A stretch of 16,114 nt of DNA from Lachnospiraceae bacterium (GTDB lineage: Bacteria; Bacillota; Clostridia; Lachnospirales; Lachnospiraceae): positions 1-16,114 of the forward strand of contig JAFUXY010000354.1 of NCBI GenBank assembly GCA_017477005.1. Direction: 5' to 3'. The number at the start of each line of letters is the position of its first letter. Position 1 is the stretch's first letter. A program made the position numbers and the translations under genes. Positions 1-16,114 of the stretch are shown here, in pieces. The notes beneath the pieces were generated by a model that was not told the DNA's origin, made no database searches, and saw only the letters and a list, made by a program, of their open reading frames with translations.

Positions 1-732
1 AAACTGCCGCGAGGCGAAGGGTACAAAGGCGGCGTCAAGCTGCCAGGAATCCTCGTCGATATCCAGAAGCACAAATCCCTTTTCTCCGCATTCGTGAAAA
101 TTCCGCCCCTCGAGGCAGCCGGGATAGCAGCATACGCCCCGCTCGTCCAGACGGCCGAATTTGTAGCTATGCACATGCCCCAGCGCCAGATAATCGATGA
201 ACTTTCCCTTGAATTGCGAGAGCTGGATACTGTGTGTCCGGTCTCTGCCGACATATCCGGGCTCCTGTCCGTGCAGAGTGACGATATTAAATTTGGATTC
301 ATCTAATATCAGATTCACCGACATGGTCTTGACATTCTCTTCGGTGATTTCCCGCCCGGAGATCACAATATTGCCGTACTCATAGGTCGTCCACTCTTCT
401 TCAAACATCCTTAAATTTTTCGGAAGTTCTTCTTCCGGTATATCGCTCAGGAAATCATTCTTTCCATGATTCCCCTTCAGATACAGAAAGTCGATGTCCG
501 GATGCTGGACAATCTCTTCAAACACCCGCCGTCTTGCGCTTTTCCGGATATGGGGCTTGTCAAACAGATCCCCGGAAATCAAAATGACAGAGACCTTCTG
601 CTCTTCGGCATACGCCACCATCCGCGAGAAAGTCTCCAGCATTTCCAGCCTCCGCTCCCTGGTTTGTTCGGGGCTCAGGCTGCTCTCAATTTTCGAATCC
701 AAATGCAGATCCGCTACATGTATAATTTTCAT
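1..732 (-). CDS. SbcD/Mre11-like metallophosphoesterase (3' part off the left edge)
   Basis: Calcineurin-like phosphoesterase of the DNA-repair exonuclease group (SbcD/YhaO-like), cytoplasmic. 244 codons are visible and the frame is open to base 1, so the C-terminus is missing. The family's metal-site motifs appear in order: D8-x-H10 (ADLHLD), G54-D55 in GDLFDKP, G87-N88-H89 in GNHG, H154 in TLHGQ and G185-H-V-H188. The usual aspartate after GNH is replaced by glycine (GNHGKND), a small deviation. The ATG at 730-732 follows an AGGAAGGG ribosome binding site. It lies 48 bases after the GH13 gene, on the same strand, so it is probably the distal part of the hup-ftsH operon. In this family the next gene is often an SMC-like ATPase (SbcC/YhaN); that would lie outside the window. 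A nuclease role is family knowledge; the exact substrate cannot be read here. Confidence 0.85.
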   Translation of the reverse strand, partial: MKIIHVADLHLDSKIESSLSPEQTRERRLEMLETFSRMVAYAEEQKVSVILISGDLFDKPHIRKSARRRVFEEIVQHPDIDFLYLKGNHGKNDFLSDIPEEELPKNLRMFEEEWTTYEYGNIVISGREITEENVKTMSVNLILDESKFNIVTLHGQEPGYVGRDRTHSIQLSQFKGKFIDYLALGHVHSYKFGRLDERGVCCYPGCLEGRNFHECGEKGFVLLDIDEDSWQLDAAFVPFASRQF

Positions 733-780
733 AACCCTTCCTAATTCGAAATATGGCAACGGTTCAGATAATCGAAACCG

Positions 781-2817: not shown

Positions 2818-2840
2818 ATGATTCCCTTCTAGTTCCTGGC

Positions 2841-4724
2841 TCACATGTCTTCTACGCGAACCCCCTCTGATTCCAAAACATCCTCTGCCTTCACGAACAC
2901 CTCATCGCCGAACAGCGCTTCAAACTCGCTGCGCCCGATCTTTTCCTTTTCCAACAGCAATGCGGCCGCCCTGTGCAGCACATCCTCGTGCGCCTGAATC
3001 AACTCCCTCGCCTTGTCGTAGCATTCTTCTACGATGCGCTTGACCTCACCATCGATGGTCGCGGCAATATCCTCGCCGTACCCCCGTATGTGGCCATAAT
3101 CACGCCCCAAAAACACCTCTTCCTCGTCCTGCACATACGAAATTGGCCCGATCGCCGAAGAAAAGCCGTATTTCGTCACCATCTCCCTGGCCGAACGCGT
3201 CGCTTTTTTCAGGTCGCTCGATGCGCCAGTGGTAATATCGTCCAAGATCAGCTCTTCTGCGACCCTGCCCCCCAAAGAGACGATGATATCCTGCAGCATC
3301 TTCCCCTTGGTGTTGAACATATCGTCGTTTTCCGGCAGCGGCATCGTGTATCCGGCCGCGCCCATACCTGTCGGGATGATCGACACCGAATACACCGGTC
3401 CCACATCGGGCAGCACATGGAAGAGGATCGCATGCCCGGCTTCATGGTAGGCGGTAATCCGCTTTTCTTTCTCGCTGATGATCTTGCTCCGCTTCTCAGT
3501 ACCGATACCCACCTTCACGAACGACTGCCGGATATCGGCCTGCTCGATGAAATGGCGGCTATCCTTGGCCGTGCGAATTGCGGCCTCATTCAACAAGTTC
3601 TCCAGATCCGCCCCGGTGAAACCCGCCGTCGTCTGCGCGATCTGCTTCAGATCCACGTCGTCCGACAGACGCTTGTTTTTTGCATGGACATTTAATATCT
3701 CTTCGCGTCCTACCACATCCGGCCGTCCCACGAATACCTTTCGGTCGAACCGTCCCGGCCGCATGATCGCAGGATCCAATATATCGACCCGGTTGGTCGC
3801 CGCCATCACGATGATTCCCTCATTGTCGCTGAAGCCGTCCATCTCGACCAGCATTTGGTTGAGCGTCTGTTCCCGTTCATCGTGTCCGCCGCCCATACCG
3901 GAGCCCCGCCGCCTCGCCACAGCGTCGATCTCGTCAATGAACACAATACAGGGCTTCCTCGCCTTGGCCTCTTTGAAAAGGTCGCGAACCCGCGAAGCGC
4001 CCACGCCCACAAACATTTCCACAAAATCCGATCCGGAGATGGAGAAAAACGGCACGCCCGCTTCTCCCGCTACGGCCTTTCCCAACAGCGTCTTTCCAGT
4101 ACCGGGAGGCCCGACCAGCAGCAGCCCCTTCGGAATCCGTGCGCCGATCTGCGTGTACTTGTCCGGAGACTTCAGAAAATCCACAATCTCCCAAAGCTCC
4201 TCCTTCTCCTCCATCAAGCCTGCCACGTCCGAAAACCGGATATCCACCTCGTCCCGATCCGTAATCCTCGCCTGACTGCGACCAAAATTCATCATCCGGT
4301 TGTCTCTGGTTGCACCTGCGGACATGGCCTGCCCCATCTGCCCGTTCATCATGATCATGAACAGGATGAACAGAGCGGCCACCACGATGATCACCGGCAG
4401 CATATCCTGTACCCACTGATTCTGGGGTACATTGTTCATCGAATACGGAACGCCCGCCGCGACAAGCTGGTCCTGAAGGAGATTCACATCCGATACATAG
4501 AGCGTGAATTCCGCCTCCTGATCCTTGATCTTGATATGCGCCGCCCCCGTTGGTACCTGCTCATTTTGGTCGATGACGACCGAGATCACCTCCCCCTCCG
4601 CAATCGCCGCATCCAACTGACCCTGCGTATACGTCGGCCCAGGATTGGCGGAGAAATACAGCCAAAAAAAGATGATCATGATCATCAGCAAAATATAGAA
4701 ACCAAATCCACTTCCCTGTCTCAA
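2841..4724 (-). CDS. ftsH: ATP-dependent zinc metalloprotease FtsH
   Basis: Membrane-anchored AAA+ protease that degrades misfolded membrane proteins and regulatory proteins. 627 residues, a normal length. Membrane segments are at about 9-26 and 109-126, with a small extracytoplasmic domain between them. Walker A is GPPGTGKT (205-212), the pore loop is FVEMFVGVG (from 234), Walker B is IVFIDEID (260-267), and the second region of homology is MAATNR...RPGRFDR (307-328). The zinc site is HEAGH (427-431), with D504 in TTGASSD as the likely third ligand. The start is a TTG at 4722-4724, placed seven bases after a GGAGG site at 4732-4736. No ATG lies near that site; the first in-frame ATGs are inside the first membrane segment. 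It lies 46 bases after hpt, as in the widespread Firmicutes tilS-hpt-ftsH cluster. Confidence 0.98.
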
Positions 4725-4731
4725 AAACGAT

Positions 4732-4736
4732 CCTCC
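4732..4736 (-). promoter_or_regulatory. Ribosome binding site that fixes the ftsH TTG start
   Basis: The minus strand reads GGAGGATCGTTTTTG: a full GGAGG seven bases before a TTG codon in frame with FtsH. The next in-frame methionines lie inside the first membrane helix and have no comparable site. Confidence 0.75.
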
Positions 4737-4770
4737 GATCGCAACGCCACGAAAGGCATTGCCTAAAACC

Positions 4771-5295
4771 TCAATCCGACTCCAACACGCCTATGTAGGG
4801 CAGATTGCGATACTTTTGGTCGAAATCCAGCCCATAACCGATCACAAACAAATTCGGAACGGCAAATCCCACATAATCCACCGCCACATCCACCTCTCTG
4901 CGATCCGGCTTGTCCAAAAGCGTCGCCACGCGCACGGATTTTGCACCCCTGTCCTTGAACAGCGAAAGCAACGCCTGCAGCGTATGTCCCGAGTCCACGA
5001 TATCATCCACGATGATCACATGCCGCCCCTCCATAGAAAGCTCCACGTCGAGGTCGAACTTCACCTTGCCCGAAGAGGCTGTGCCGCTGCCGTAGCTCGA
5101 CGCTTTGACAAAATCCAGCGTCAGCGGCAGATCGATCCGTTTCGCCAGATCGCAGGCGAAAAAGCACGATCCCCTCAGCGTACAGACCAAAAACACGCTC
5201 TCTCCCTTGTAGTCCTCAGTAATCTGCTGCCCCATCTGGGCAATCCGTTGCGCAATCTCTTCCTCCGGCAGCAAAACACGGATATTTTTGCTCAT
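4771..5295 (-). CDS. hpt: Hypoxanthine phosphoribosyltransferase
   Basis: Purine salvage enzyme that transfers ribose-5-phosphate from PRPP to hypoxanthine (and usually guanine), giving IMP or GMP. 174 residues, normal for the bacterial enzyme. The PRPP-binding motif [13 protein letters not shown] lies at 93-105, the early loop CTLRGSCFF at 38-46, and a C-terminal segment with [17 protein letters not shown] is typical of bacterial Hpt. The ATG at 5293-5295 is preceded by AGGAAGGA, which overlaps the tilS stop region, so translation is probably coupled to tilS. In Bacillus, HprT and TilS have been linked to control of ftsH; whether that applies here is only inference from the shared gene order. 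Confidence 0.97.
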
Positions 5296-5307
5296 GCTCC
5301 ATCCTTC

Positions 5308-6774
5308 CTAACCAATCCCAGCCCCATCCGCCATTTCGTCGCGGACGACGCTGCATGTCAATACCTGCACGGTGTCCTCATCCACAAAAAACAGAGGACA
5401 GTCACGCACCCCGACGACCCAGAAGATCTCATCCCTGGCCAAAACCACCGGAATCCGTTCCCGGCCTTCCCTCGGCACCTTTGCATCGATCAACAATCTT
5501 GCTATTTTTTTGTGCTTTCCGTCCTTGGAAATCGCTATGCGATCACCTGGTTTCGGAAAACGCACACATACTTTGTCTATTCTATCATAATTTACCCAAA
5601 TAGAAAAGAAATCTTTTTCCTTTCCTGTGTCAAAATCTCCTTTTCCGGGACAATTCCGGGCAAAATCCACGGAAAAACGTATTTTTTGCCTACCAAATAG
5701 CACTATTTTCGTCTCCCCAGGCTGCATTTTCGGAAGAAAAAACACCTCTCCGGCCGCTTTCTCTTTTATTTTTGGGTGCGAACTTCCTCGCCCCTTCCTC
5801 AAATACAGTTTTTCATAACCGCTTTCGACGAAATACTCTCCGGGAAGATCGATCCTTGCCCCTGCGCCGCCAGAGGCCAGACGAAGCGCCGCGCGCACCT
5901 GCCCAAACGAAACCTCCGGCGAACAGTCCGCCAGCCAACGATGCATCACCTCCCCGGCCAAGGCTGGAGAAAGCGACCGAAGCGCCGCCTTGTCGATCCC
6001 AGACTCTCCCCCGCTCCCTTCTATGGACAGGGCGTGTTCGCGAAGAAAGCCGTCCGCCTTCGCCTCCATAAAGTCCTTCACCTGCCCCATCGTCGCGGCC
6101 GTTTGCGCCATATGCGCCGCCGCCTGTGGGTTTGCCCGGGCAAGCATCGGCATTACCTGATTGCGGACAAAATTTCTGGCATAATCGTCGCTCGCATTGC
6201 TCGAATCCGTCCGCCAGCTCTGCCCGCAATCCCGCAGATACGCTTCGATCTCGGCCCGCGAAACACATAAAAGAGGACGAATGATCTCCGTGTCCTCCAA
6301 TTTCACTCTGGCTCGTATGCCGCAGAGCCCCGCCAGCCCCGTCCCCCGGACCAGGGACAACAGCATCGACTCCGCACAGTCGTCCCTGTGGTGCGCCAAA
6401 GCGACCTTCGCCGCCTTTTGGCCCTCCTTGGCATAATGCCAGTACAGCCGCCTGCGAACTATTCTCCCGGCCTCCTCGAGCCCGATTTTTTCTCTCCGGG
6501 CAAAAGCCGGGACATCCACTCGCTCCACATAGCAGCGGACGCCTCTACTCTCACAGAGCGAACGCACAAACCGCTCGTCCTCGTCCGCCTCCGCTCCCCG
6601 GATACCGTGGTGGATATGGAGGACTTCAAACGATAGCTCCCACTCCTTTGCCAGCCAATCCAGCAACAAAAAAAGACAGACGGAATCTGCTCCACCGGAA
6701 ACTCCCGCCAGCACGGAATCCCCCCGTTTCAGCATACCCTCTGTCTCTATAAAATCTCGGATCCTGCGTCTCAT
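5308..6774 (-). CDS. tilS: tRNA(Ile)-lysidine synthase TilS
   Basis: Modifies C34 of the CAU-anticodon isoleucine tRNA to lysidine using ATP and lysine, so that AUA codons are read as isoleucine; essential in most bacteria. 488 residues, at the long end of the family. The PP-loop ATP motif SGGADS is at 26-31, followed by the typical HHGIRGAEADEDERFV segment and ALAHHRDDCAES. A substrate-binding region follows, then a C-terminal domain from about residue 370 ending in FPKPGDRI and a PLFFVDED-type segment. The start ATG lies two bases after the stop of the division gene upstream and has no strong ribosome binding site, so coupling is likely. It ends 12 bases before hpt. Confidence 0.97.
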   Translation of the reverse strand: MRRRIRDFIETEGMLKRGDSVLAGVSGGADSVCLFLLLDWLAKEWELSFEVLHIHHGIRGAEADEDERFVRSLCESRGVRCYVERVDVPAFARREKIGLEEAGRIVRRRLYWHYAKEGQKAAKVALAHHRDDCAESMLLSLVRGTGLAGLCGIRARVKLEDTEIIRPLLCVSRAEIEAYLRDCGQSWRTDSSNASDDYARNFVRNQVMPMLARANPQAAAHMAQTAATMGQVKDFMEAKADGFLREHALSIEGSGGESGIDKAALRSLSPALAGEVMHRWLADCSPEVSFGQVRAALRLASGGAGARIDLPGEYFVESGYEKLYLRKGRGSSHPKIKEKAAGEVFFLPKMQPGETKIVLFGRQKIRFSVDFARNCPGKGDFDTGKEKDFFSIWVNYDRIDKVCVRFPKPGDRIAISKDGKHKKIARLLIDAKVPREGRERIPVVLARDEIFWVVGVRDCPLFFVDEDTVQVLTCSVVRDEMADGAGIG

Positions 6775-6776
6775 AA

Positions 6777-7073
6777 TCAGCGTTCTCGGAAAATAATCTC
6801 GTTGGGCGACACCAGACCCAGCTTGCTCTTTGCCATGTTCTTGGTGTACTCCTCCGATTTCGTATACGTCTCATAATCCGAGAGCTCTTTTTGCTTCTCC
6901 TGCTGCTCCGAAAGCTGCTGCTTCAGATCCGCCTCGCGGGAAGCATACTCCTCGCTCTTGTCGTAGAGCATCACGAGCTGAACCGTCATGAACGCAATCA
7001 AAAGCCCTATCATGAGTAGGAAATAAAGGCGGCCGGTCCGCCTTGTCTGTCTTTGACCTCTTATTTTTTTCAT
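6777..7073 (-). CDS. divIC: DivIC/FtsB-family septum formation protein
   Basis: Small bitopic cell-division protein. In this family it forms a coiled coil with FtsL and belongs to the FtsQ/DivIB-FtsB-FtsL complex that activates septal synthesis. 98 residues from the ATG at 7071-7073. A basic cytoplasmic tail (KKIRGQRQTRRTGR) is followed by one membrane helix (about residues 17-37) and a heptad-like coiled coil rich in E, Q, K and L (about 38-72). The close, SKLGLVSPNEIIF, matches the family's common ...lG.v.pgE.. ending. A GTG at 7115 would add 14 residues that look unlike the family. The ribosome binding site is weak for either start. The stop is two bases before tilS. Confidence 0.88.
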   Translation of the reverse strand: MKKIRGQRQTRRTGRLYFLLMIGLLIAFMTVQLVMLYDKSEEYASREADLKQQLSEQQEKQKELSDYETYTKSEEYTKNMAKSKLGLVSPNEIIFRER

Positions 7074-7186
7074 AAGCACACACACCAATGAATGCGGAAA
7101 CGCCCATTGAGGCACATTTGCCTATCGGTATTTCCCTTCACAAGAGGTTTGGAGTCCCCACAATTCCAAGCCCTGTTCCACTACGA

Positions 7187-7444
7187 TTACAATAGTTTGT
7201 ACAGTCCGGCGGCCTCCTCCTTCTTCGTCGTGTCCTTCAGCTCCAAAATCTCTGCCTTCACGACGCGATCCCCGAACACAATCTCCAAAACGTCTCCAAC
7301 CTTCACCTTCGTGGAGGGCTTCGCCGCATTGCCATTCACCAGGACTCTCCCGGCTTCACAGGCTTCTGCGGCGACCGTCCGACGCTTGATCAATCTGGAA
7401 ACCTTCAAAAATTTGTCGATCCTCATGCCCGATTCAGCCGACAT
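7187..7444 (-). CDS. rqcP: S4-domain RNA-binding protein RqcP (YabO)
   Basis: Small S4-fold RNA-binding protein. In Bacillus, RqcP works with RqcH in ribosome-associated quality control, helping add C-terminal alanine tails to stalled nascent chains on the 50S subunit. 85 residues as given. The S4 core MRIDKFLKVSRLIKRRT is followed by GRVLVNG and KVGDVLEI, all characteristic. Two starts are possible. The ATG at 7444 has AAGGA eight bases upstream and overlaps hup by 11 bases. The ATG at 7426 gives the family's usual MRIDKF start but has a poorer site. I kept the longer form. Gene order hup-rqcP is conserved in Firmicutes. Confidence 0.92.
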   Translation of the reverse strand: MSAESGMRIDKFLKVSRLIKRRTVAAEACEAGRVLVNGNAAKPSTKVKVGDVLEIVFGDRVVKAEILELKDTTKKEEAAGLYKLL

Positions 7445-7712
7445 TCACAGCATCCTTGAGCGCCTTGCCCGCCTTGAACTTCGGTGCCTTGGAAGCCGGA
7501 ATAATAATCTCTTCCTTGGTCTGCGGATTGCGTCCCTTTCTCTCGCCTCTCTCAGCCACCTCAAAGGTTCCAAATCCCACGAGCTGGATCTTCTCACCCT
7601 TCGAAAGCTCCTCGGCGATGATCTCTGTAAACGCTTTCAGTGCATTCTCGGCGTCCTTTCTCTGGAGTCCTGCCCTGTCCGCAATCGCTGAAACCAATTC
7701 TGTCCTGTTCAT
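7434..7712 (-). CDS. hup: HU-family nucleoid DNA-binding protein
   Basis: Histone-like dimeric protein that bends and compacts DNA. 92 residues, standard length. It starts MNRTELVSAIADRAGL and carries the family signature GFGTFEVAERGERKGRNP, followed by the DNA-binding beta arm and the closing ASKAPKFKAGKALKDAVN. The ribosome binding site GGGAGGAG lies just before the ATG. It is the first gene after a strong promoter and probably heads the operon running down to ftsH and beyond. Its stop lies inside the rqcP frame. Confidence 0.97.
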   Translation of the reverse strand: MNRTELVSAIADRAGLQRKDAENALKAFTEIIAEELSKGEKIQLVGFGTFEVAERGERKGRNPQTKEEIIIPASKAPKFKAGKALKDAVNVG

Positions 7713-7733
7713 AATACATTCTCCTCCCTAATC

Positions 7734-7760
7734 AGCACTTTGTGTATCTCATACAGTGCT
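7734..7760 (-). other. Hairpin in the hup 5' untranslated leader
   Basis: The 27 bases start AGCACT and end AGTGCT, giving six base pairs, then one mismatch and about four more pairs (one a G:T wobble) around a short loop. It lies between the expected transcription start (about 7788) and the ribosome binding site. No T tract follows, so it is not an intrinsic terminator. It may stabilise the mRNA or bind a regulator; no function can be assigned. Confidence 0.5.
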
Positions 7761-7795
7761 TTCGCATTTTCTAATAAAGCGCAAATTGTTTCTAC

Positions 7796-7823
7796 ATTAT
7801 AAAGGTTTTGTGGGTTTTGTCAA
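7796..7823 (-). promoter_or_regulatory. Sigma-A-type promoter of hup and the downstream operon
   Basis: On the minus strand a perfect TTGACA (7818-7823) and a perfect TATAAT (7796-7801) are separated by 16 bases. This is the strongest promoter-like sequence in the window and leaves a leader of about 75 bases before hup. A strong promoter fits the abundance of HU. Confidence 0.85.
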
Positions 7824-7832
7824 GCATATATC

Positions 7833-8343
7833 GTGGAATTGACAGACCTATCTCATTATTCGAAAGAGAACGAGGGCTACTTTCCCCGTTTTGCATTTAT
7901 CGAATCGCTCAAGAAAAGTCTGGACGGCATAGAAAACCTCAGGAAGATCCGGGGAAAACGCCATTATTGGAATTTTGAAAGGCTGCCAGGATCTGGTATT
8001 TCGTATCTCTTCTGTGGGTTTTGACTGGTATCCCACCATTTGCAGATTTGTCAGACAGACGAAGCTGTACACAAAAACAGTAACAATCGTGCGAGACGCA
8101 GAATCGACGGGCATGGGCAATGCGTGTTATCTTTCACTGGACGGAATAAACAGGTACGACAAAATGCCTAAAGCCGTTTTTTTGCAAGAAGCAAAGGATG
8201 GCATGGGAAAATGCGTTGGTGAGGGGATAATGCTCATTTATCTGATTGATCTGGAAGACACATGGAACATTTTCTCATCCGACTCTCCGACAAAGGTTAA
8301 ACAGATAGAAATAGTTTGCCCAGTTTGTCCCTATTTTTCATAG
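7833..8343 (+). pseudogene. Unrecognised frame, possibly frameshifted remnant
   Basis: I do not recognise this. Two overlapping plus-strand frames lie here: 7833-8024 (GTG start, 63 residues) and 7975-8343 (TTG start, 122 residues), offset by one base. Joined by a frameshift near 7980-8020 they would give one protein of about 165 residues. The second frame has plausible composition (for example RFVRQTKLYTKTVTIVRDAE and GEGIMLIYLIDLEDTW). Neither start has a convincing ribosome binding site, and the 5' end abuts the hup promoter. The DNA is more AT-rich than its neighbours. The stop at 8341-8343 runs into the convergent toxin remnant. It could be a decayed acquired gene or chance open frames. 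Nothing else is visible in 7833-8330. Confidence 0.3.
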
Positions 8344-8502
8344 TCCTGCAAATCATGGAAAATGTAGTCCACAAACACGGTATCACCGTCCGTATGGAAT
8401 AGCATGACATAGTTGTGGCGGCGCAAGTGGATTTTCTTAATGCCCCGTTTCGCCAAACGGGGATTGTCCGACTGCTTTATGTCGAACTCGATATTTTTTC
8501 AT
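8331..8502 (-). pseudogene. Truncated RelE/ParE-like toxin gene
   Basis: The minus-strand frame from 8489 to the stop at 8331-8333 encodes 52 residues, EFDIKQ...KRGIKKIHLRRHNYVMLFH...DTVFVDYIFHDLQDYEK. I recognise this as the C-terminal half of a RelE/ParE-superfamily toxin of the type common in gut Clostridia. The family is usually about 100 residues, so roughly the first half is missing. An ATG at 8500-8502, one base after the antitoxin stop, starts MKKYRVR but is in a different frame and stops after 21 codons. Removing one A from the A6 run just after that ATG would give MKN-IEFDIKQ and join the start to the toxin frame. The antitoxin upstream appears intact, as expected of a decayed pair. 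Confidence 0.6.
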
Positions 8503-8503
8503 C

Positions 8504-8779
8504 TCAAATCCCCAGCTCCGCGCTAATTTCGTCTAATGCTTCATCCATATCCTGATGCTCGCCGTTTTGGGACTGCACGATAGAACGATCAATTGCGGCG
8601 AGCAGCTCATCTTCGACCAGCGGCTTCATGGGACTGTCCGCCGTCAATGCGACCTGTGCATAGGAAAATACCCGCTGCACATCGCTGTCCGGCAAAATAT
8701 CCAACACCTCATGCGTCCTTTTCCTTATATCCTCGGCATTGCCGACTGTGCGGCTTTGGGTTGCTGCTAAACTTGGCAT
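8504..8779 (-). CDS. Putative type II antitoxin
   Basis: 91 residues from the ATG at 8777-8779, which has AAAAGGAG at good spacing. A longer frame from 8848 exists but lacks such a site. I recognise no named domain. The middle (EVLDILPDSDVQRVFSYAQVAL) looks helical, and the acidic tail (DMDEALDEISAELGI) resembles toxin-wrapping C-termini of type II antitoxins. The antitoxin assignment rests mostly on position: one base before a RelE/ParE-like toxin remnant in the same direction, the usual antitoxin-toxin order. It overlaps the preceding 77-residue frame by 13 bases. It may be retained to neutralise related toxins elsewhere, or may simply not have decayed yet. Confidence 0.6.
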   Translation of the reverse strand: MPSLAATQSRTVGNAEDIRKRTHEVLDILPDSDVQRVFSYAQVALTADSPMKPLVEDELLAAIDRSIVQSQNGEHQDMDEALDEISAELGI

Positions 8780-9000
8780 AATCCGTACTCCTTTTTGCAA
8801 ACTTGCTCTAATTCCCCTAAAATTGAAAGCACCTCTTGTTTCTGCCATTCTTCCGTGTTATTTACATCACGCTCAAATATCTCACTCCATTCCGAATGTT
8901 CACAATCCATATATTCAAATCGATACCGTATTCTTACACTCTGTTTCTCTTTAAGCTTCAATGCCATATTCTCATCTTCACTATTATATTCCTCTAACAT
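8767..9000 (-). CDS. Unknown small acidic protein, 77 residues
   Basis: Not recognised. Charged, soluble, no membrane segment: RIRYRFEYMDCEHSEWSEIF then a helical stretch (EEWQKQEVLSILGELEQVCKKEYGL). Two starts are possible, ATG 9000 and ATG 8967 (MALKLKEKQ); neither has a strong ribosome binding site, and the 9000 start lies inside the BrnT remnant in another frame. The end overlaps the putative antitoxin start by 13 bases, which suggests one transcript. It may be a complete accessory gene or the tail of a longer one disrupted at the BrnT junction. Confidence 0.5.
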   Translation of the reverse strand: MLEEYNSEDENMALKLKEKQSVRIRYRFEYMDCEHSEWSEIFERDVNNTEEWQKQEVLSILGELEQVCKKEYGLCQV

Positions 9001-9064
9001 AATCTATACCATGTTTTTCAGCATTTATTTTGTTTTTATTTTCATCCCATTCAAATAAATACAT
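8984..9064 (-). pseudogene. brnT: N-terminal remnant of a BrnT (DUF497) toxin
   Basis: A 26-codon frame beginning MYLFEWDENKNKINAEKHGI and stopping at 8984-8986. FEWDE-NK-x-N-x-x-KHGI is the highly characteristic start of BrnT ribonuclease toxins, normally about 90 residues. The ATG at 9062-9064 has AAGGA seven bases upstream, so the expression start is intact but the body of the gene and any BrnA antitoxin are missing. The break coincides with the start of the unknown 77-residue frame, which suggests a deletion or recombination joint. Confidence 0.6.
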
Positions 9065-9097
9065 TCCCCATTCCTTTTCTATTTCAAGCAAAACCCC

Positions 9098-9790
9098 TCA
9101 TTTAATCGTAATATCTCCGACCGAAACATCCACCTTGATGAAATTCTTGCCGTCCTTCTTTTTATACGGGGATTTTCTCTCCTTGCCGCCCACCTTGATA
9201 GTACCAACATCGGTGGCCAGCGAAAGAGAGGTGTCCTTGATCGATACCGAATCCTTGACCAAAACATCCGAGACGTTTCCGTCCACGTCCAGCTCCTGGA
9301 TCTGGCAGCCCTCAATCGTGCAATCTCCCGCAGCCGGTTTCAAGGAAATTTTATCGACCGAAATATCTCTGACTGAAAAATCCCCGGCTGCTACATCCAC
9401 ATCCACAGATGTCAACGAGGCCTTTTTGGGCACTGTGATATTCAGCGTAGCGGAAAGATTGTTCTTGGGAGCAGAATTGTCCGAATGAATCAAAAGCGTC
9501 TTCTTGCTGACCTCCGCTTCGATTGGATAGTCCGCTGTCCGTGTAATTTCGATGGAATACCCATCTCCCCACTCGATATTCACATCCGCGCTCATCAAAT
9601 CCACGGAGACCTTGTTGAACTTTTTCAGCTCCTGCTCCTCCTCGACGCTTTCCTTGCCCTTGAGTGTCTGCTTCACTCCAGAGGTAATCGATTTCACCTG
9701 ACTTGTCACCTTTTTGCAGCCGGAAAGCGACACGGAACAACACAATAGCAGCATTCCTACAGCGATTAGCCTAATTCTGTTTTTTTTCAT
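9098..9790 (-). CDS. DUF4097-like lipoprotein
   Basis: Exported lipoprotein of 230 residues. The signal peptide (MKKNRIRLIAVGMLLLCC) ends in the lipobox LSGC with lipidation at Cys25, so it should be anchored on the outer face of the membrane. The mature part is built of short beta-strand repeats alternating in S, D, V and I (SVDLMSADVNIEWG, SVDVDVAAGDFSVRDISVDK, ELDVDGNVSDVLVKDS), the right-handed beta-helix pattern of DUF4097/adhesin-like proteins. Function is unknown for the family. The ATG at 9788-9790 has AGAGGA at good spacing; an upstream in-frame start at 9829 would overlap proB and spoil the signal peptide. It lies 22 bases after proB and shares its promoter. Confidence 0.85.
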   Translation of the reverse strand: MKKNRIRLIAVGMLLLCCSVSLSGCKKVTSQVKSITSGVKQTLKGKESVEEEQELKKFNKVSVDLMSADVNIEWGDGYSIEITRTADYPIEAEVSKKTLLIHSDNSAPKNNLSATLNITVPKKASLTSVDVDVAAGDFSVRDISVDKISLKPAAGDCTIEGCQIQELDVDGNVSDVLVKDSVSIKDTSLSLATDVGTIKVGGKERKSPYKKKDGKNFIKVDVSVGDITIK

Positions 9791-9812
9791 ATTGCATCCT
9801 CTTTCTACTGCC

Positions 9813-10610
9813 CTACGCTCGTCCGACAAACAGGGTTCCTCTTTCCTGCCCGGCTACAATCTCATCCAATATCGATGGATCTTTTCCGTTCGTGATAATC
9901 ACATCGACGCCCTGGCGCGTCGCGATATCCGCCGCCTGCAGCTTTGTCCGCATACCTCCGGTCCCCCGCCTCGACCCGGCGCCTCCGGCCAAGGTATAGG
10001 TAGATTCATCGATGCAGTCAATCCGCTTGATCAACGTCGCGTCCTTGAATAGACGGGGATCCTTGTCATAAAACCCATCGATATCCGACAATATGATCAG
10101 CTTGTCCGCCTTGCAAAGCACAGCCACCACGGCGGACAGCATATCGTTGTCTCCGAACAGCTTCTCTTCAGATTCAATCTCTGTATAGCTCACGGAATCG
10201 TTTTCGTTCACGATCGGAATGATCTCCTGTTCCAAGAGCGCTTCGAAGGTATTGGCAAGATTTTCCTTTTTTTCCTCAACCTTGATGTCGTCTGCGTTCA
10301 GCAAAATCTGCGCGACCGTCTTGTTGTAATACCCAAAAAACTTGTCGTACAAAAACATATTTTCACATTGACCGACTGCTGCCGCTGCCTGCTTCATCCG
10401 CAGCTCCTTTGGTCGTTCTTCGAGGTGCATCTTTTGGGCACCCACCGCGATCGCCCCGGAAGAAACCAAGATCACATCGTTGCCCTTGTTGTGCATATCT
10501 GCGAGCGCCAGTGCCAGCGACTCAAAGGTGCGAAGATTGCTGTTTCCCAGTTCGTTTGTAAGCGTGGAGGTACCTACCTTCACTACGATTCGTTCTTTCC
10601 GACGCTTCAT
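9813..10610 (-). CDS. proB: Glutamate 5-kinase ProB
   Basis: First step of proline synthesis: ATP-dependent phosphorylation of glutamate to gamma-glutamyl phosphate, cytoplasmic. 265 residues: the amino-acid kinase domain only, without the C-terminal PUA domain found in the E. coli enzyme. Motifs are VVKVGTSTL (9-17), VSSGAIAVGAQ, IVNENDSVS, FGDNDMLSA, LSDIDGFYDKDPR and GTGGMRTKLQAA. The start is the ATG at 10608-10610 behind AAAGGAG; a longer frame to 10652 adds only an atypical tail. proA, the usual partner, is not adjacent; a lipoprotein gene follows instead. Confidence 0.95.
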   Translation of the reverse strand: MKRRKERIVVKVGTSTLTNELGNSNLRTFESLALALADMHNKGNDVILVSSGAIAVGAQKMHLEERPKELRMKQAAAAVGQCENMFLYDKFFGYYNKTVAQILLNADDIKVEEKKENLANTFEALLEQEIIPIVNENDSVSYTEIESEEKLFGDNDMLSAVVAVLCKADKLIILSDIDGFYDKDPRLFKDATLIKRIDCIDESTYTLAGGAGSRRGTGGMRTKLQAADIATRQGVDVIITNGKDPSILDEIVAGQERGTLFVGRA

Positions 10611-10666
10611 CCAGTCTTTCTCCTTTGTCGTTTCCGAAGATCCATTTCCCAAAATCCATTTCCTTC

Positions 10667-10694
10667 ATTCTACACTCATTTTCTGATTTTTCAA
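10667..10694 (-). promoter_or_regulatory. Promoter of proB
   Basis: On the minus strand TTGAAA (10689-10694) and TAGAAT (10667-10672) are 16 bases apart, just downstream of the glycosyltransferase stop and about 57 bases before the proB ATG. Confidence 0.6.
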
Positions 10695-10731
10695 GTGATT
10701 CTTTGGATTGGAGCGGAAAACGCACAGGTCT

Positions 10732-11748
10732 CTAATTGAACCCCATCACCCTTTGCGCCAGCTTGTAGGCGCGTACCGAAATGAACCTTCCGAAGCGGCC
10801 TGGAAGCTGCATGGTGCCGCCCAGCACGCCATAGCGCAGATGCCGGTAGGTTCGCCTGTCCTTGTTTCGGATGTACCGCCAGAGTTCCTTCACCTTCCGC
10901 AGATTCTCCTTGTCCTTCGACACATAGCCGATCGAGGTAGAGACGACAGTAATCATCTCAAGATACGAAAGCATGTACTCCCGCAGATGCTTCTCCTCGA
11001 TCGCCCACGGATCCACGAGGTCGATCATCATATAATTGACCCGGAGCTGCTGGTCGATGCGGCGCACCATCGTCTTTTCCGCCACGGACTGTCCCTCGCG
11101 GCCGATATAATACCGATAAAAATCCACGTTCAAGTAATAAAATTTCTTGACATACGGAAGCGGAATATACACAAACAAATTGTCCACATAAAAGGTGTGC
11201 TCCGGCAGCGTGAGTCCGGATTTCCGCAGCATTTCCGTGCGATAGATCACCGAATGCATCAGGATCGAAAAGCCCTTGATGTTTCGCTTCATGTTCTCCC
11301 AGCCGATGACCCTGTCCCTTGGAAACAGAGGAGTGTACATCATATGGCGTTTGCGGCGCTTCCCCTCCTTTTCATAGACATAATTCGTAAGCAGCATGTC
11401 AATCTCTTCATGGTCGCTCTCGAGGCGTTTCAGGGTGGAAAGCACCTTTCGATAGGCCGCGTCGTCCACCCAGTCGTCGGAGTCCACTACCTTGAAGTAT
11501 TTGCCCGTGGCCTGCTGGATCCCGGTATTGACCGCGCCCCCATGTCCTTTGTTTTCCTGGTGGATCGCCCGTACAATATTGGGATATTTCTGCTCGTATT
11601 CATCGGCCACATGCCCGGTCATATCGGTTGAACCATCGTTGATAATCAAAATCTCCACGTCCTCCCCGCCAGGCAGCAGGGATTCGATGCATTTGTCCAT
11701 GAAGCTCTCCGAATTGTAGCTCGGAATCGCAAAAGTCAGCAATTTCAT
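10732..11748 (-). CDS. Family 2 glycosyltransferase
   Basis: GT-A-fold glycosyltransferase of 338 residues using a nucleotide sugar, probably for cell-surface polysaccharide or teichoic acid. The N-terminal catalytic domain has FAIPSYNSESFM, the NDGSTD motif (37-42), NKGHGGAVNTGI and the metal-binding VVDSDDW (D89, D91, D92). The C-terminal half is basic and aromatic, without membrane helices, and resembles the glycosyltransferases commonly encoded alone in Clostridia. Acceptor and donor cannot be inferred. An ATG at 11757 directly abuts AAGG and is too close to it; the ATG at 11746-11748 sits eight bases from AAGGA, so I chose it. It has its own promoter and diverges from ribU. Confidence 0.9.
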   Translation of the reverse strand: MKLLTFAIPSYNSESFMDKCIESLLPGGEDVEILIINDGSTDMTGHVADEYEQKYPNIVRAIHQENKGHGGAVNTGIQQATGKYFKVVDSDDWVDDAAYRKVLSTLKRLESDHEEIDMLLTNYVYEKEGKRRKRHMMYTPLFPRDRVIGWENMKRNIKGFSILMHSVIYRTEMLRKSGLTLPEHTFYVDNLFVYIPLPYVKKFYYLNVDFYRYYIGREGQSVAEKTMVRRIDQQLRVNYMMIDLVDPWAIEEKHLREYMLSYLEMITVVSTSIGYVSKDKENLRKVKELWRYIRNKDRRTYRHLRYGVLGGTMQLPGRFGRFISVRAYKLAQRVMGFN

Positions 11749-11783
11749 AAAACCCATCCTTATTTACCAATTTGTACTATGTG

Positions 11784-11798
11784 TTATCTCAAAGATAA
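11784..11798. other. Small palindrome overlapping the glycosyltransferase promoter
   Basis: TTATCT-CAA-AGATAA is a perfect six-base inverted repeat around three bases. It covers part of the -10 element and the expected transcription start of the minus-strand promoter, a position typical of operators. It could be chance in AT-rich DNA. Confidence 0.35.
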
Positions 11799-11823
11799 TA
11801 CCTATTCTTCGGCAATTATTCAA
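11795..11823 (-). promoter_or_regulatory. Promoter of the glycosyltransferase gene
   Basis: On the minus strand TTGAAT (11818-11823) and TATTAT (11795-11800) are 17 bases apart, about 45 bases before the start codon. Confidence 0.65.
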
Positions 11824-11854
11824 GGATATTTCAGCAAAAATCTCAATCCCCCCC

Positions 11855-11883
11855 TTGAACCCCTGCTGATTCTGTGCTATGAT
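11855..11883 (+). promoter_or_regulatory. Promoter of the FMN-riboswitch/ribU transcript
   Basis: TTGAAC (11855-11860) and TATGAT (11878-11883) are separated by 17 bases. Transcription would start about 11890, ahead of the leader hairpin and the riboswitch. It lies about 30 bases from the divergent glycosyltransferase promoter. Confidence 0.7.
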
Positions 11884-11900
11884 GATTTTCGACAAATTTA

Positions 11901-11941
11901 CCTGTACCGTTGAAGCATCCAAAATGCTTCAACCATACAGG
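11901..11941 (+). other. Extended hairpin between promoter and riboswitch
   Basis: A perfect ten-base stem, GTTGAAGCAT (11909-11918) and ATGCTTCAAC (11924-11933), closes a CCAAA loop. Outside it, CCTGTA (11901-11906) pairs with TACAGG (11936-11941) across a two-by-two internal loop. The hairpin would begin about ten bases into the RNA and ends nine bases before riboswitch helix P1. No T tract follows on either strand, so it is not a normal terminator. Confidence 0.7.
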
Positions 11942-11949
11942 AGGAAATA

Positions 11950-12136
11950 TCTTCGGGGCAGGGTGAAATTCCCGACCGACGGTGAGGCTCTTTCGATACC
12001 ACACAGCGTTATTTTGAAAGAGACGAGTCCGTGAGCCGATGGTGGTTTGATTATTTTTGACTTCAAAAAAAGATGCTGCCATTGGTTGAACGTGGTCCAA
12101 ATCCACTACCGACAGTACAGTCTGGATGGGAGAAGA
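11950..12136 (+). promoter_or_regulatory. FMN riboswitch (RFN element)
   Basis: Recognised by its conserved blocks: TCTTCGGGGCAGGGTGAAAT at the 5' side, CCCGACCGACGGT, GAGTCCGTGAGCC (from 12025), GGTCCAAATCC (from 12094), and the closing GTCTGGATGGGAGAAGA. P1 forms from TCTTC (11950-11954) and GAAGA (12132-12136). One variable arm is closed by CTCTTTC/GAAAGAG (11988-11994 and 12016-12022), and a second AT-rich arm spans about 12044-12070. In this class, FMN binding stabilises the aptamer and turns off downstream genes. The next gene is the riboflavin transporter ribU, and an intrinsic terminator lies between, which fits control by premature termination. Confidence 0.95.
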
Positions 12137-12178
12137 ATTCGAAAGACAGCGTGGTCTGTTTTTGGTGTGATCGTATCC

Positions 12179-12211
12179 ATTGCCTTTGGAGATTTTCCAA
12201 GGGCAATTTTT
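12179..12211 (+). terminator. Riboswitch-controlled intrinsic terminator
   Basis: ATTGCCTTTGGA (12179-12190) pairs with TCCAAGGGCAAT (12196-12207) over twelve positions, one of them a G:T wobble, around a GATTT loop. A T run follows directly. It lies between the FMN aptamer and the ribU ribosome binding site, as expected for transcriptional attenuation. Confidence 0.88.
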
Positions 12212-12264
12212 AATAGGAAACGCTTCCCTTTGCATTTCCTGAACCAAAAAAGGAGGACTTTTTT

Positions 12265-12891
12265 ATGAGCGATTTCACACAAACCAATCCATCCGGGACG
12301 ATGCGCGGCACGCGAATGGGGAAACAGGTACGCTATATGACGGCCACCGGGCTGCTGTCCGCCGTTGCCTTTATTCTACAGTTTTTTGAGTTCTCCGTTC
12401 CGCTGATGCCTTCCTTCATCAAAATGGACCTTTCGGATCTGCCGGAGCTGATCGGCGCCTTCGCGCTCGGTCCCTTTGCGGGCGCTATGATCGCCCTGAT
12501 CAAAAACCTGATCCACCTTCCGCTGTCGCAGACAGGCGGCGTTGGCGAACTCTGCAACTTCCTGCTCGGCGCCTGCTTCGCCGTGACCGCGGGCACGATC
12601 TACAAGCTGCACAAGACGAAAACAGGCGCTATCGCAGCCTCCCTCATCGGCGCTGTCTGCATGGCCGTCCTGTCGTTCCCGATCAACCTGTTCATTACCT
12701 ATCCATTCTATGAACTGATGATGCCCCGGGAGGCCATTGTAGCCGCCTACCAGGTGATCCTGCCTCGGGTACAGACCTTGGCCGAATGCCTTCTCATCTT
12801 CAACGTGCCGTTCACCTTTGTGAAGGCGATGCTCTCGGTCGGGATTACGATGGTTGTGTACAAGCGGCTCTCGCCGATCCTTCATGGATAG
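12265..12891 (+). CDS. ribU: Riboflavin ECF transporter S-component RibU
   Basis: Membrane substrate-binding component that captures riboflavin and works with the shared EcfA/A'/T energising module, which is not in this window. 208 residues, normal length, with about six hydrophobic segments. Characteristic features are GLLSAVAFILQFFEFSVPLMPSF, FIKMDLSDLPELIGAFALGP, and KNLIHLPLSQTGGVGELCNFLLG, the conserved RibU loop. The ATG follows AGGAGG at good spacing. The FMN riboswitch upstream independently supports riboflavin as substrate. The stop overlaps the start of the downstream sensor frame by eight bases. Confidence 0.95.
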   Translation: MSDFTQTNPSGTMRGTRMGKQVRYMTATGLLSAVAFILQFFEFSVPLMPSFIKMDLSDLPELIGAFALGPFAGAMIALIKNLIHLPLSQTGGVGELCNFLLGACFAVTAGTIYKLHKTKTGAIAASLIGAVCMAVLSFPINLFITYPFYELMMPREAIVAAYQVILPRVQTLAECLLIFNVPFTFVKAMLSVGITMVVYKRLSPILHG

Positions 12892-13831
12892 GGAGCTATT
12901 CAAAAAAGAACTTGCGCAAATGACGCAGGATAAGGAAAAGCGTATGAAGCAAGACAAATCCCGCAAAGCCATACACAAAATTATTTTCATAGAGGTCATC
13001 GTATTCCTGCTTCTGACCGGCGCCTTGTTCGCCGGTCTTTTGGTCATGACGGTTCGTCCGTACGACACGCTGATCTCGGAGCATCTGTCGAATCTAAAGG
13101 AATCGATCGAGGTGTATCGCAAGGCTGAATCGGATTCCGAAAAGAGTATTGTCGATTGTCTGCAGCTCCAAGTCGATGCGCTCGGCTGGATGATTCGCCA
13201 CGGTCTGTTGGAACCCACGCCGGAGGCCCTGCGCCCCTATGTGGATCTCCTGCATGCCGAAAATATTCTGATCTTGGATCCCGAATACAATGTGTTGGAA
13301 ACGGTGCTGCCGGTGGAGGACAAGCCCGATCAGATCACTGGTCCCGGAACCAAAATCAGCGACGACCGGGCTCTTGTTCTGGAGATGGACTTTGCCCAAT
13401 TGGAAGAAATGTTCAACGAAGCGCTGTCCTGGGAAAAAGGCACCAGCGAAACCGTGATCGGCCGACAGGGATACGCCTTTTCGGTCAACAAAGAAACCAA
13501 CGAGATCACACACCACCGGGACAAGGCTCTGGAAGGACAGACCGTTCAATGGCTGGCAGGTCAGCCGGAAAAGATGGCGGATGGAAAGATGGGGCTTTTG
13601 CAGGTCGGCAATGAGCTGTTGTACGGCACGCTGTCTTTGGAAAAAACCGAGCATTACTATGATGAATACGTGGTTTGCGCCGTGCCTCTCATAGAAATCG
13701 CCACCCCGATCTTCGCGAACATCCAGGCCTTCCTGTGGGTCTTTTTGCTGATTACCGTTTTATTTACCTGCTATCTGGTCTTTTCTCTCGGAGAAACAGA
13801 TACGGTTTCAACGGATATATTGAAGCAATAA
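12884..13831 (+). CDS. Membrane Cache-like sensor, N-terminal part of an interrupted sensor/MscS gene
   Basis: 315 residues ending at an in-frame TAA (13829-13831). A charged cytoplasmic start is followed by membrane helix 33-56, an extracytoplasmic region 60-277 and membrane helix 279-300. The extracytoplasmic part contains GRQGYAFSVNKETNEITHH (193-211), which resembles the closing strand pattern of Cache ligand-binding domains; the ligand is unknown. The ATG at 12884-12886 overlaps the ribU stop and lacks a ribosome binding site, so translation is probably coupled. After the TAA the same frame continues at once into another membrane helix and a second homologous sensor module, so I read this as the N-terminal third of one gene of about 1,010 codons. 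Alternatively it could be a separate sensor subunit. Confidence 0.7.
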   Translation: MDRELFKKELAQMTQDKEKRMKQDKSRKAIHKIIFIEVIVFLLLTGALFAGLLVMTVRPYDTLISEHLSNLKESIEVYRKAESDSEKSIVDCLQLQVDALGWMIRHGLLEPTPEALRPYVDLLHAENILILDPEYNVLETVLPVEDKPDQITGPGTKISDDRALVLEMDFAQLEEMFNEALSWEKGTSETVIGRQGYAFSVNKETNEITHHRDKALEGQTVQWLAGQPEKMADGKMGLLQVGNELLYGTLSLEKTEHYYDEYVVCAVPLIEIATPIFANIQAFLWVFLLITVLFTCYLVFSLGETDTVSTDILKQ

Positions 13832-15919
13832 TTGATCTCCTATTCCTTTCTGGGGATGATCGTCGTCTTTGTCGTTTCCATGTTCTGGTCCAGGCTGAAT
13901 GCGGTTTCGGACTTTGCTTTAAGCTGCCGGAACCGGGCAGACGACGCAGTCCGAACAGTGGAATCCTACGAACGATCCACGGATCAGATTCAGGAGTTTT
14001 ACAACGACGAGTACCTGATCCGGTGCCGCCTCGCAGCGGATATTATCACAAAGGCGCCCGCATACCGCACGAGAGCCGGTATGAAAGAGATTGCGAACTT
14101 GCTCGGCGTGAACTATGTGTATCTCTTCGATCAGAGCGGAACGGTCGCCGTCACCAACTCTCCGTTTGACCATTTCACACTGAGCGAAAACGAGTCCGAT
14201 CAGTCTTATGCGTTTTGGCCGCTGTTGGACGGCAATGATTTTGTTGTGCAAGAACCCCTTCCCGACGATGTATCCGGAAAATGGATGCAGTACGTCGGCG
14301 TTTCCCTGCGAAATGAAGAGGATCTGGCGGATGGATTCGTCCAGATCGGCGTCCATCCCAAAGAATATGAACAGATTGTCGAAAATATGAATCTCTCCAC
14401 CAAGTTGAACGCGATCAATATTGCCAACCGTGGTTTCGCGTTCGCCGTCGATGAAGAGACAAAAACGATCACTTATGCGCCGAGGAAAAAATGGGTTGGG
14501 AAGGCCGCAGAAAAAATCGGCATCAAGGACGAAAAGATTGCAGACGATTTTGTTGGTTATTTGAAAATAAAGGACACGCTCTATTTTGCGGCGGCGGAAG
14601 AAATCGGCTCCAACGACCAGCTTGTCTTCGTCGTGATTCCGTGGGACGACCTGCGTTCCGGACAATGGGGCTTTGTAGTGCTGACCTCCCTGCTGGCGCT
14701 CTTCACTATGCTTGGGATGTCGTGGATTGCGCTGCGGAGGCTGAACGAAGCCGAGGGCGAGGCAGTGACTACGGAAGATTGCGCGGATACGGACGAATCT
14801 GCGGCGGATCGCCTGAGTGAGAAAACTCCTTCGGAGGATCGCCCGGATACGGATGGAATCACAGAGGAACGCACAAATGCAGACCCCCCTCAAACAGCAG
14901 AAAATACTCCGTCCAAACCGAAACGGTTCCGCTGGCTCGACGCATGGGGGATTACGATCAACCAGCAGCTTGAAGCCCGCTGGAAGACTTCGCATCAGCC
15001 TTGGAAGCTGAGCTCCGCCGGTGAAAAGACGTTCCGATTGTTTCAAATTGGCATCTTTATTTTCAGCCTGTTCATCGCCTGGGTGCGGCTGTTCGGGGAA
15101 TCCGTTCTGCCGAAGGATTCGATCATCGTCTACATCATTCAGGAACAGTGGGAAAAGGGGCCGAATATCTTCGCGGCGGCGGCCTGCCTGATGATCCTAT
15201 GCCTCATTTACGCCGCTGTGAAAATTGCGGATCGGATTTTGTACAGCCTGGCCCGGATCTCCGATACCCGGACTGAGACCGTCTGCCATCTGCTGCGCAG
15301 CCTGATCGCCTACGGGTCGGTCATCGCGACCCTGTATTACTGTCTGGCGCAGTTCGGCGTCAACACGAGAACCCTGCTGGCTTCCGCCGGTATCCTGTCC
15401 CTCGTGATCGGTCTTGGCGCGCAGGGACTCGTCACGGATATTGTCGCGGGATTGTTTATTATCTTTGAGAATCAGTTCGCCGTAGGCGACTACGTTCAGG
15501 TCGGAGATTGGCTGGGATTTGTGACCGAAATCGGCATCCGCACCACGAAGATTTCCTTTCAGGGCGAGGTGAAATGCTTCAACAACAGCGACATTCGCGG
15601 CGTGCGCAATCTCTCCGCCAGCGACACTTCGATCGCCAACTGCGAAATCGGCTTCTCCTACGAAGATTCGCTGACAAAGTTGCAGGAGATTTTTGACCAG
15701 GAGCTGCCCTTGCTGCAAGAGAAGATCGATGGCGCCACAGGACAGGCGACCTGCTTTGGCATTGTCCGATTGGAGGACAGCGCCATCGTGATGAAATTCC
15801 AACTCCCCTGTGAAAGCCGGAAAAAAGCACGGGTACAGGCGGCATTCTACCGGGAACTGCTGCTGCTTTTGGAACGCAACCAGATCGAGTTGCCTTATCC
15901 GCATATGACCATCGGGTAG
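13832..15919 (+). CDS. Cache-like sensor plus MscS mechanosensitive channel, C-terminal part of the interrupted gene
   Basis: 695 codons counted from the TTG directly after the TAA. A membrane helix (2-19) is followed by a sensor region (20-275) with IANRGFAFAVDEETKTITY (197-215), homologous to the module upstream, and another helix (about 278-302). An acidic linker (303-362) has three ten-residue units (318-347). Channel helices follow at about 404-420, 447-470, 491-510 and the pore helix 515-545 (SLVIGLGAQGLVTDIVAG). The MscS beta domain starts at FAVGDYVQVGDWLGFVTEIGIRTTKI, and a C-terminal domain ends HMTIG. Family knowledge: MscS proteins form heptameric tension-gated pores. No ribosome binding site precedes the TTG, or the ATG at 13856 at a useful distance. 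So this half is made by readthrough or reinitiation, or not at all. Confidence 0.75.
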   Translation: MISYSFLGMIVVFVVSMFWSRLNAVSDFALSCRNRADDAVRTVESYERSTDQIQEFYNDEYLIRCRLAADIITKAPAYRTRAGMKEIANLLGVNYVYLFDQSGTVAVTNSPFDHFTLSENESDQSYAFWPLLDGNDFVVQEPLPDDVSGKWMQYVGVSLRNEEDLADGFVQIGVHPKEYEQIVENMNLSTKLNAINIANRGFAFAVDEETKTITYAPRKKWVGKAAEKIGIKDEKIADDFVGYLKIKDTLYFAAAEEIGSNDQLVFVVIPWDDLRSGQWGFVVLTSLLALFTMLGMSWIALRRLNEAEGEAVTTEDCADTDESAADRLSEKTPSEDRPDTDGITEERTNADPPQTAENTPSKPKRFRWLDAWGITINQQLEARWKTSHQPWKLSSAGEKTFRLFQIGIFIFSLFIAWVRLFGESVLPKDSIIVYIIQEQWEKGPNIFAAAACLMILCLIYAAVKIADRILYSLARISDTRTETVCHLLRSLIAYGSVIATLYYCLAQFGVNTRTLLASAGILSLVIGLGAQGLVTDIVAGLFIIFENQFAVGDYVQVGDWLGFVTEIGIRTTKISFQGEVKCFNNSDIRGVRNLSASDTSIANCEIGFSYEDSLTKLQEIFDQELPLLQEKIDGATGQATCFGIVRLEDSAIVMKFQLPCESRKKARVQAAFYRELLLLLERNQIELPYPHMTIG
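14783..14872 (+). repeat. Three 30-base (10-codon) repeats in the channel linker
   Basis: The linker reads as three ten-residue units, each ending in DR or ER: ADTDESAADR, LSEKTPSEDR, PDTDGITEER. At DNA level GGATCGCC recurs 30 bases apart (14806 and 14836) and CGGATACGGA 60 bases apart (14784 and 14844), so the units arose by tandem duplication and have since diverged. Confidence 0.55.
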
Positions 15920-15937
15920 GAAGCCTTTCCTACCCGA
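15912..15937. terminator. Shared convergent terminator hairpin
   Basis: TCGGGTAGGAA (15912-15922) pairs perfectly with TTCCTACCCGA (15927-15937) around a GCCT loop. Each arm contains the TAG stop of one of the two convergent genes (15917-15919 plus, 15930-15932 minus). A short T-rich stretch (ATATCTTTT) follows on the plus strand; none follows on the minus strand, so termination may be stronger for the channel transcript. Confidence 0.75.
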
Positions 15938-16114
15938 ATATCTTTTCCAAAATCCCTACATATTCCTGATACACCGACAGGTCACTAAGCTCCGAGACGA
16001 TGTCGGCGACCGAACGGTAATACCATTCCTGCTCGGCCGGATCCTTCATATTGAATTTGTCCCAGACGCCGCTGCCCTGCTTCTCAAAATCCCGCAGGGT
16101 GCTTCGCATATTCG
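15930..16114 (-). CDS. Unrecognised protein, C-terminal 61 residues (5' part off the right edge)
   Basis: The minus-strand frame is open from the right edge to the TAG at 15930-15932. The visible residues are charged and helical (STLRDFEKQGSGVWDKFN, EWYYRSVADIVSELSDLSVY, then EYVGILEKIFG). There is no membrane segment and no motif I can name. Codon use looks like that of the neighbouring genes, and the frame ends in a convincing shared terminator, so I believe it is a real gene; its function cannot be inferred from this fragment. Confidence 0.6.
   Translation of the reverse strand, partial: NMRSTLRDFEKQGSGVWDKFNMKDPAEQEWYYRSVADIVSELSDLSVYQEYVGILEKIFG

Follow-up and report, generated by a model that had tools for sequence, protein, structure and literature searches.

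A putative tandem-sensor MscS gene of a Lachnospiraceae bacterium, probably interrupted by one in-frame TAA

The window analyzed here is a stretch of 16,114 nucleotides from a Lachnospiraceae bacterium (GenBank assembly GCA_017477005.1, contig JAFUXY010000354.1, positions 1 to 16,114, forward strand). It carries a putative channel gene of the MscS family, in which the TAA at 13829-13831 is the sole separator of two same-frame open reading frames (ORFs), the second running from TTG 13832 to TAG 15917-15919. The question is whether these are two genes, one gene read across its stop, or one gene that has been broken. The evidence makes it probable that a single ancestral tandem-sensor MscS gene (dCache-like sensor, dCache-like sensor, MscS pore) acquired one nonsense codon, and the stop is most likely an ordinary recent loss-of-function mutation.

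Continuity of the gene in relatives

The stop-to-stop segments measure 335 codons (upstream) and 695 codons (downstream), and no in-frame stop other than this TAA was found across the 3 kb of the gene. A preliminary description of this DNA had placed the frames 12884-13831 and 13832-15919 in one reading frame with TAA alone between them, and these coordinates were reproduced. Judged from the alignments, the layout is beyond chance, since in relatives a single protein spans both pieces. By position, the TAA occupies the basic end of a loop immediately ahead of the third membrane helix, and this loop between the two sensor modules is predicted to be short and, from the topology, cytoplasmic.

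The protein collection was searched with the downstream part, which gave 33 matches, including the window's own 695-aa protein (P0001). Among the other 32, 26 were 948-1,069 aa long and covered 98-100% of the query; the remaining six had lower coverage. The closest copy, P0002 (978 aa, approximately 51% identical over the downstream part), is a single open frame, as are P0003 (1069 aa) and P0004 (980 aa). The alignment with the read-through protein was built from 29 of the 33 matches (P0001, P0020, P0032, and P0033 were left out). The column of the stop was occupied mostly by Lys (19 relatives), followed by Gln (5), Arg (3), Gly (1), and Ile (1); as database proteins are stop-free by nature, this column shows protein continuity and says nothing on the number of broken copies. 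P0020 (575 aa), which starts within the second sensor, may itself be a further broken copy or may be cut by a contig end.

Long open frames were also present in the DNA of the nearest genomes: 966 codons in G004, 964 in G003, 951 in G038, and 886 in G005 (G003, G004, and G005 are genus-mates), as well as 870 codons in G031 after the interruption of its frame (see below). Over roughly the final 140 bases of its contig (L139:9480-9623), the G005 frame diverges from its near-twin P0002, probably a contig-end artefact. The proposal of one ancestral gene with one nonsense codon was thus borne out by 29 continuous proteins among 29 aligned relatives and by 28 open copies among 33 at the DNA level. 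The alignment of relatives, recommended as a check in the preliminary description, gave one full-length protein (948-1,069 aa); a consistent two-protein arrangement with conserved stop and start signals was looked for in them and not found.

When the upstream half alone, or read-through residues 1-315, was used as the query, the protein collection returned no match, not even P0002 or the query's own half; the word-based filter was probably not sensitive enough for distant relatives, and the result shows only the absence of a near-identical copy. The 90% cluster of P0001 is listed with three member sequences on one contig, from which nothing was concluded. A scan of genome contigs gave 80 loci with 26-38% identity, most of them small MscS genes from Bacilli.

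The TAA might instead be an assembly or strain-mixture error in the draft, with an intact gene in the living cell. We consider this unlikely. The window's assembly (G000) is 76.4% complete and comprises 538 contigs, its readable sampled contigs span 0.39 to 0.55 G+C, and the gene has no other in-frame stop, all of which would fit an error. A second, distantly related tandem-sensor MscS gene of G000 was observed on an A+T-rich contig (C17). Because of the G+C spread (e.g., L142 and L178 compared with the window) and the A+T-rich C17, the bin may be a mixture of two or more organisms. Against an error, a consensus mistake that happens to make a stop should be rare, given usual short-read error rates, and no near-identical intact copy turned up in the protein collection. 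From one draft assembly, a real mutation and an assembly error are not distinguishable.

Translation signals and alternatives to loss

Four upstream start codons were considered: TTG 12854, ATG 12884 (inside the overlap with the preceding gene), ATG 12920, and ATG 12944. The best ribosome-binding site of the four belongs to ATG 12944 (AAGG-type Shine-Dalgarno, -5.1 kcal/mol, spacing 6), which also matches the N-termini of most aligned relatives by eye; ATG 12884 scored -1.7 kcal/mol. The upstream part therefore likely starts at ATG 12944 (295 aa) rather than at ATG 12884 (315 aa). Of the gene described earlier, with a start at 12884 and about 1,010 codons, the unity was retained, while the likelier start at ATG 12944 gives an ancestral length of about 991 codons.

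TTG 13832 was preceded by a weak site (-3.3 kcal/mol at spacing 12), and no Shine-Dalgarno site was found when the next in-frame ATGs, 13856 and 13880, were scored. The earlier statement that the TTG lacks a ribosome-binding site thus needs correction for the TTG itself and holds for the two ATGs. For comparison, 14 positions in the window were scored, one of which is not a start codon and some of which are alternatives for one gene; eight of the 13 real start codons reached -5.0 or better and the other five lay between -2.4 and -4.4. A weak site is by itself not enough to exclude translation, since these five are weak too. The weak sites speak against efficient translation of the second part, not decisively. 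Beyond the weak TTG site, the pair showed neither the ribosome-binding site nor the overlapping start expected for the second cistron of a translationally coupled gene pair, as TTG 13832 and the TAA do not overlap.

If the nonsense reading is right, translation would end at the TAA and yield a membrane-bound sensor that lacks the pore. With no good ribosome-binding site of its own, the pore half would be translated poorly or not at all, and channel function would be lost or strongly reduced. A recent change is probable, given the lack of additional divergence in the downstream half and of any second lesion in the gene: downstream identities between the window and P0002-P0004 were 0.46-0.52, compared with 0.45-0.48 among P0002-P0004 themselves.

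Several points weigh against this interpretation. The TAA is known from one draft assembly, and the expression of either half is only predicted. Five of the 13 other scored start codons are also weak, and the stop falls between two self-contained modules, as a functional split would also predict. The upstream-half identities of the window (0.26-0.32) extended to just under the range among P0002-P0004 (0.27-0.33), its mean distance in this half to six outgroups was the largest of the four (3.80, compared with 3.37-3.51), and its upstream-half terminal branch (1.11) exceeded those of P0002 and P0004, not that of P0003. From these values, a mild relaxation of constraint on the upstream half is possible.

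Such a functional fission, in which the upstream sensor and the one-sensor channel are separate products that cooperate in the membrane, would account for a split between two complete sensor modules, in their connecting loop, for halves that each model as a self-contained membrane protein, and for a downstream half without extra divergence. It is nevertheless very unlikely, as the second part has a weak ribosome-binding site, none of the 29 aligned relatives is split at the same place, and the two other interruptions found (see below) lie inside a sensor and just past the first helix, where working parts are not expected.

The preliminary description had also offered programmed readthrough or stop-start reinitiation at TAATTG, which would yield either a minor amount of full-length protein or two regulated products. 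The 695 codons that stay open past the stop and the TTG immediately next to it are what such a mechanism would need, and yet the rest of the evidence did not sustain it. The stop and its context are not conserved among the relatives, and G031 even has a different stop codon. The fold of the RNA around the stop showed no structure beyond that of shuffled sequences (z -0.36), the Shine-Dalgarno sites are weak or absent, and the UAA is followed by U, a context generally regarded as efficient for termination. The mechanism is highly improbable here.

Reassignment or efficient suppression of TAA in the organism is almost certainly not the explanation: nothing but the open frame itself favours it, and among 126 closed ORFs of 100 aa or more in the readable sampled contigs (a length-based selection with some spurious members), 30 end in TAA. 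ARAGORN found 17 tRNA genes and no ochre suppressor among them, which is a weak point in a genome only 76.4% complete and also bears on readthrough. In the same contigs, 13 same-frame ORF neighbours lay one stop apart, three of them in the window; the 12 pairs other than the present one were judged by eye, without homology searches. This count by itself does not single out the present pair, because in 13 of 13 pairs an ATG, GTG, or TTG occurs among the first 11 codons of the second ORF.

Interruptions in other tandem-sensor MscS genes

Tandem-sensor MscS genes were counted as DNA from overlapping searches of 61, 397, 6, 397, 392, 3, and 1 genomes. Of 33 genes, 28 were open, two were cut by contig ends, and three were interrupted. 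A script was used to take apart 28 of the 33 (three interrupted, one cut by a contig end [G000 C17], and 24 open); among these 24, G143, G166, and G297 run off the examined piece and were called open from frame lengths. Of the rest, G261 C61, G335 C21, and G354 C101 were called open from the frame lengths of the search alone, G157 was also open, G005 was counted as open, and G269 was cut by contig ends.

The interrupted genes are that of the window (TAA), that of G031 (TGA), and that of G380 (TAA). In G031 (L143:3467-6538, minus strand), a single in-frame TGA lies inside sensor 1, where P0005 has Arg. In G380 (L148:1501-4611), the TAA is at approximately codon 36, just past the first membrane helix; the gene of its genus-mate G719 is open and 84% identical over 1,033 aligned positions. 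The three stops are at three different places and therefore represent three separate events. By eye, the G380 stop sits behind an apparent strong ribosome-binding site. On the DNA compared, the pattern is one of sporadic nonsense and not of conserved recoding.

In G357 (L245:3841-4299), only the last 153 residues were observed, mid-contig and 61% identical to P0005, and the remainder was not found in the surrounding 7.7 kb. The piece appears to be a truncated remnant or a misassembly and was left out of the 33 genes.

As a control, a GH13 enzyme was sought in 28 genomes and found in 26 of them, as 26 near-complete copies (the window's own included) and one partial copy. None was interrupted; a stop flagged in G065 was the terminal one. 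The difference from 3 of 33 was not significant (one-sided Fisher P about 0.17, or 0.15-0.16 with slightly smaller counts), and no excess of interruption is shown, because of this P value and because the GH13 control gene is shorter. A second control, a chemoreceptor, gave only two matches and was useless. It is quite unlikely that tandem-sensor MscS genes are repeatedly switched off by single stops (three of 33, at different places, plus one truncated remnant) and restored by reversion, with the channel frequently lost and conditionally harmful, or that the halves in this species now serve as a separate sensor and channel.

Modules, neighbours, and known systems

The upstream part (12944-13831, plus strand), delimited from the frames, a structure model, and Foldseek, was predicted to consist of a membrane helix, a dCache-like extracytoplasmic sensor, a second membrane helix, and a short tail ending at the TAA. 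Its model (predicted local distance difference test [pLDDT] 80, predicted template modelling score [pTM] 0.60) shows a mixed alpha/beta sensor flanked by two long helices. The downstream part (13832-15919, plus strand; 695 codons, ending with TAG), delimited from Pfam, a model, and Foldseek, was predicted to comprise a membrane helix, a second dCache-like sensor, a membrane helix, a low-confidence linker, and an MscS channel domain (pLDDT 75, pTM 0.46). The models agree with the earlier view that the upstream part ends in a helix and a short tail and the downstream part opens with a helix.

Curated models matched MscS membrane helices 2/3 and the beta domain in the downstream part: PF00924 with 48.4 bits (1e-12; cut-off 20.2) and PF21088 with 26.1 bits (8e-6; cut-off 23.1). 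The MscS C-terminal domain (PF21082) was not listed for the window and was present in six of 30 alignment members. In Foldseek, the downstream model matched MscS 3udc (E 1.2e-15) and dCache 6iot (E 2.9e-10); the best matches of the upstream model were dCache ligand-binding domains, the first being PctA (E 6e-6), with low TM-scores. The Pfam dCache_1 gathering score (45 bits) was missed, with 14.0 bits for the downstream part and no match for the upstream part; P0002 reached 34.3 bits, and 16 of 30 alignment members matched at E 0.01. Since the TM-scores to dCache entries were only about 0.2-0.43 for both models and the Pfam cut-off was missed, the label dCache-like is of moderate strength. The two sensor modules are homologous to each other, as the preliminary description had it (profile comparison, 99.5% probability over 215 columns), and in this comparison neither sensor matched the channel part. 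Without the interruption, the gene would encode two dCache-like sensors together with an MscS channel. In relatives with an intact gene, the sensors presumably recognize a small ligand outside the cell and adjust the conductance of the pore or its tension threshold.

Upstream of the gene lies a predicted ECF-transporter substrate-binding (S) component gene (12265-12891, plus strand; Pfam PF12822, 3.5e-30), with a strong Shine-Dalgarno site before its ATG; its end overlaps ATG 12884 by eight bases. In all five loci examined from one branch of relatives (L241, L242, L243, L244, and L148), a family 3 solute-binding protein gene (PF00497) directly precedes the tandem-sensor MscS gene, and an aquaporin-family gene (PF00230) was beside this pair in two of the five (G114 and G229). 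No PF00497 neighbour was seen in G003, G004, G005, G031, or the window (by eye except for G005). These neighbours suggest a possible ligand supplier and a possible osmotic cluster.

The broken gene itself is ordinary, and it is a caution against taking two frames as two genes. Like ordinary nonsense-interrupted pseudogenes, it has one stop in an otherwise open frame and intact relatives, and no difference from them was identified. The intact family matters more than the broken copy, as two chemoreceptor-like sensor modules joined to an MscS pore would allow external chemistry to set the osmotic release valve of a bacterium. Among the titles and abstract openings listed in searches of an open-licence library, no paper on a two-sensor MscS architecture was found, which is not proof of novelty. 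In the parts seen of a Cache-domain census (PMC4822843), ion channels are named only as calcium-channel subunits and related domains, and the word "mechanosensitive" does not occur.

Among known systems, MscK of E. coli is described as a large MscS member gated by force and external potassium (PMC9653487). The channel part of the window gene scores better with small MscS (3udc, 2.5e-53) than with MscK (5e-20). The ligand-binding domains of dCache chemoreceptors (PctA, Mlp24, Mlp37, and Tlp3) resemble the sensor modules in the fold search, whereas the predicted output of the window gene is a channel and not a signalling domain, and its sensors fall below the Pfam dCache_1 cut-off. With the MscS family (3udc and 3t9n; E. 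coli MscS), the gene shares the channel part by sequence and fold; unlike these channels, it adds two large N-terminal sensor modules with membrane helices of their own, and it is interrupted by a stop.

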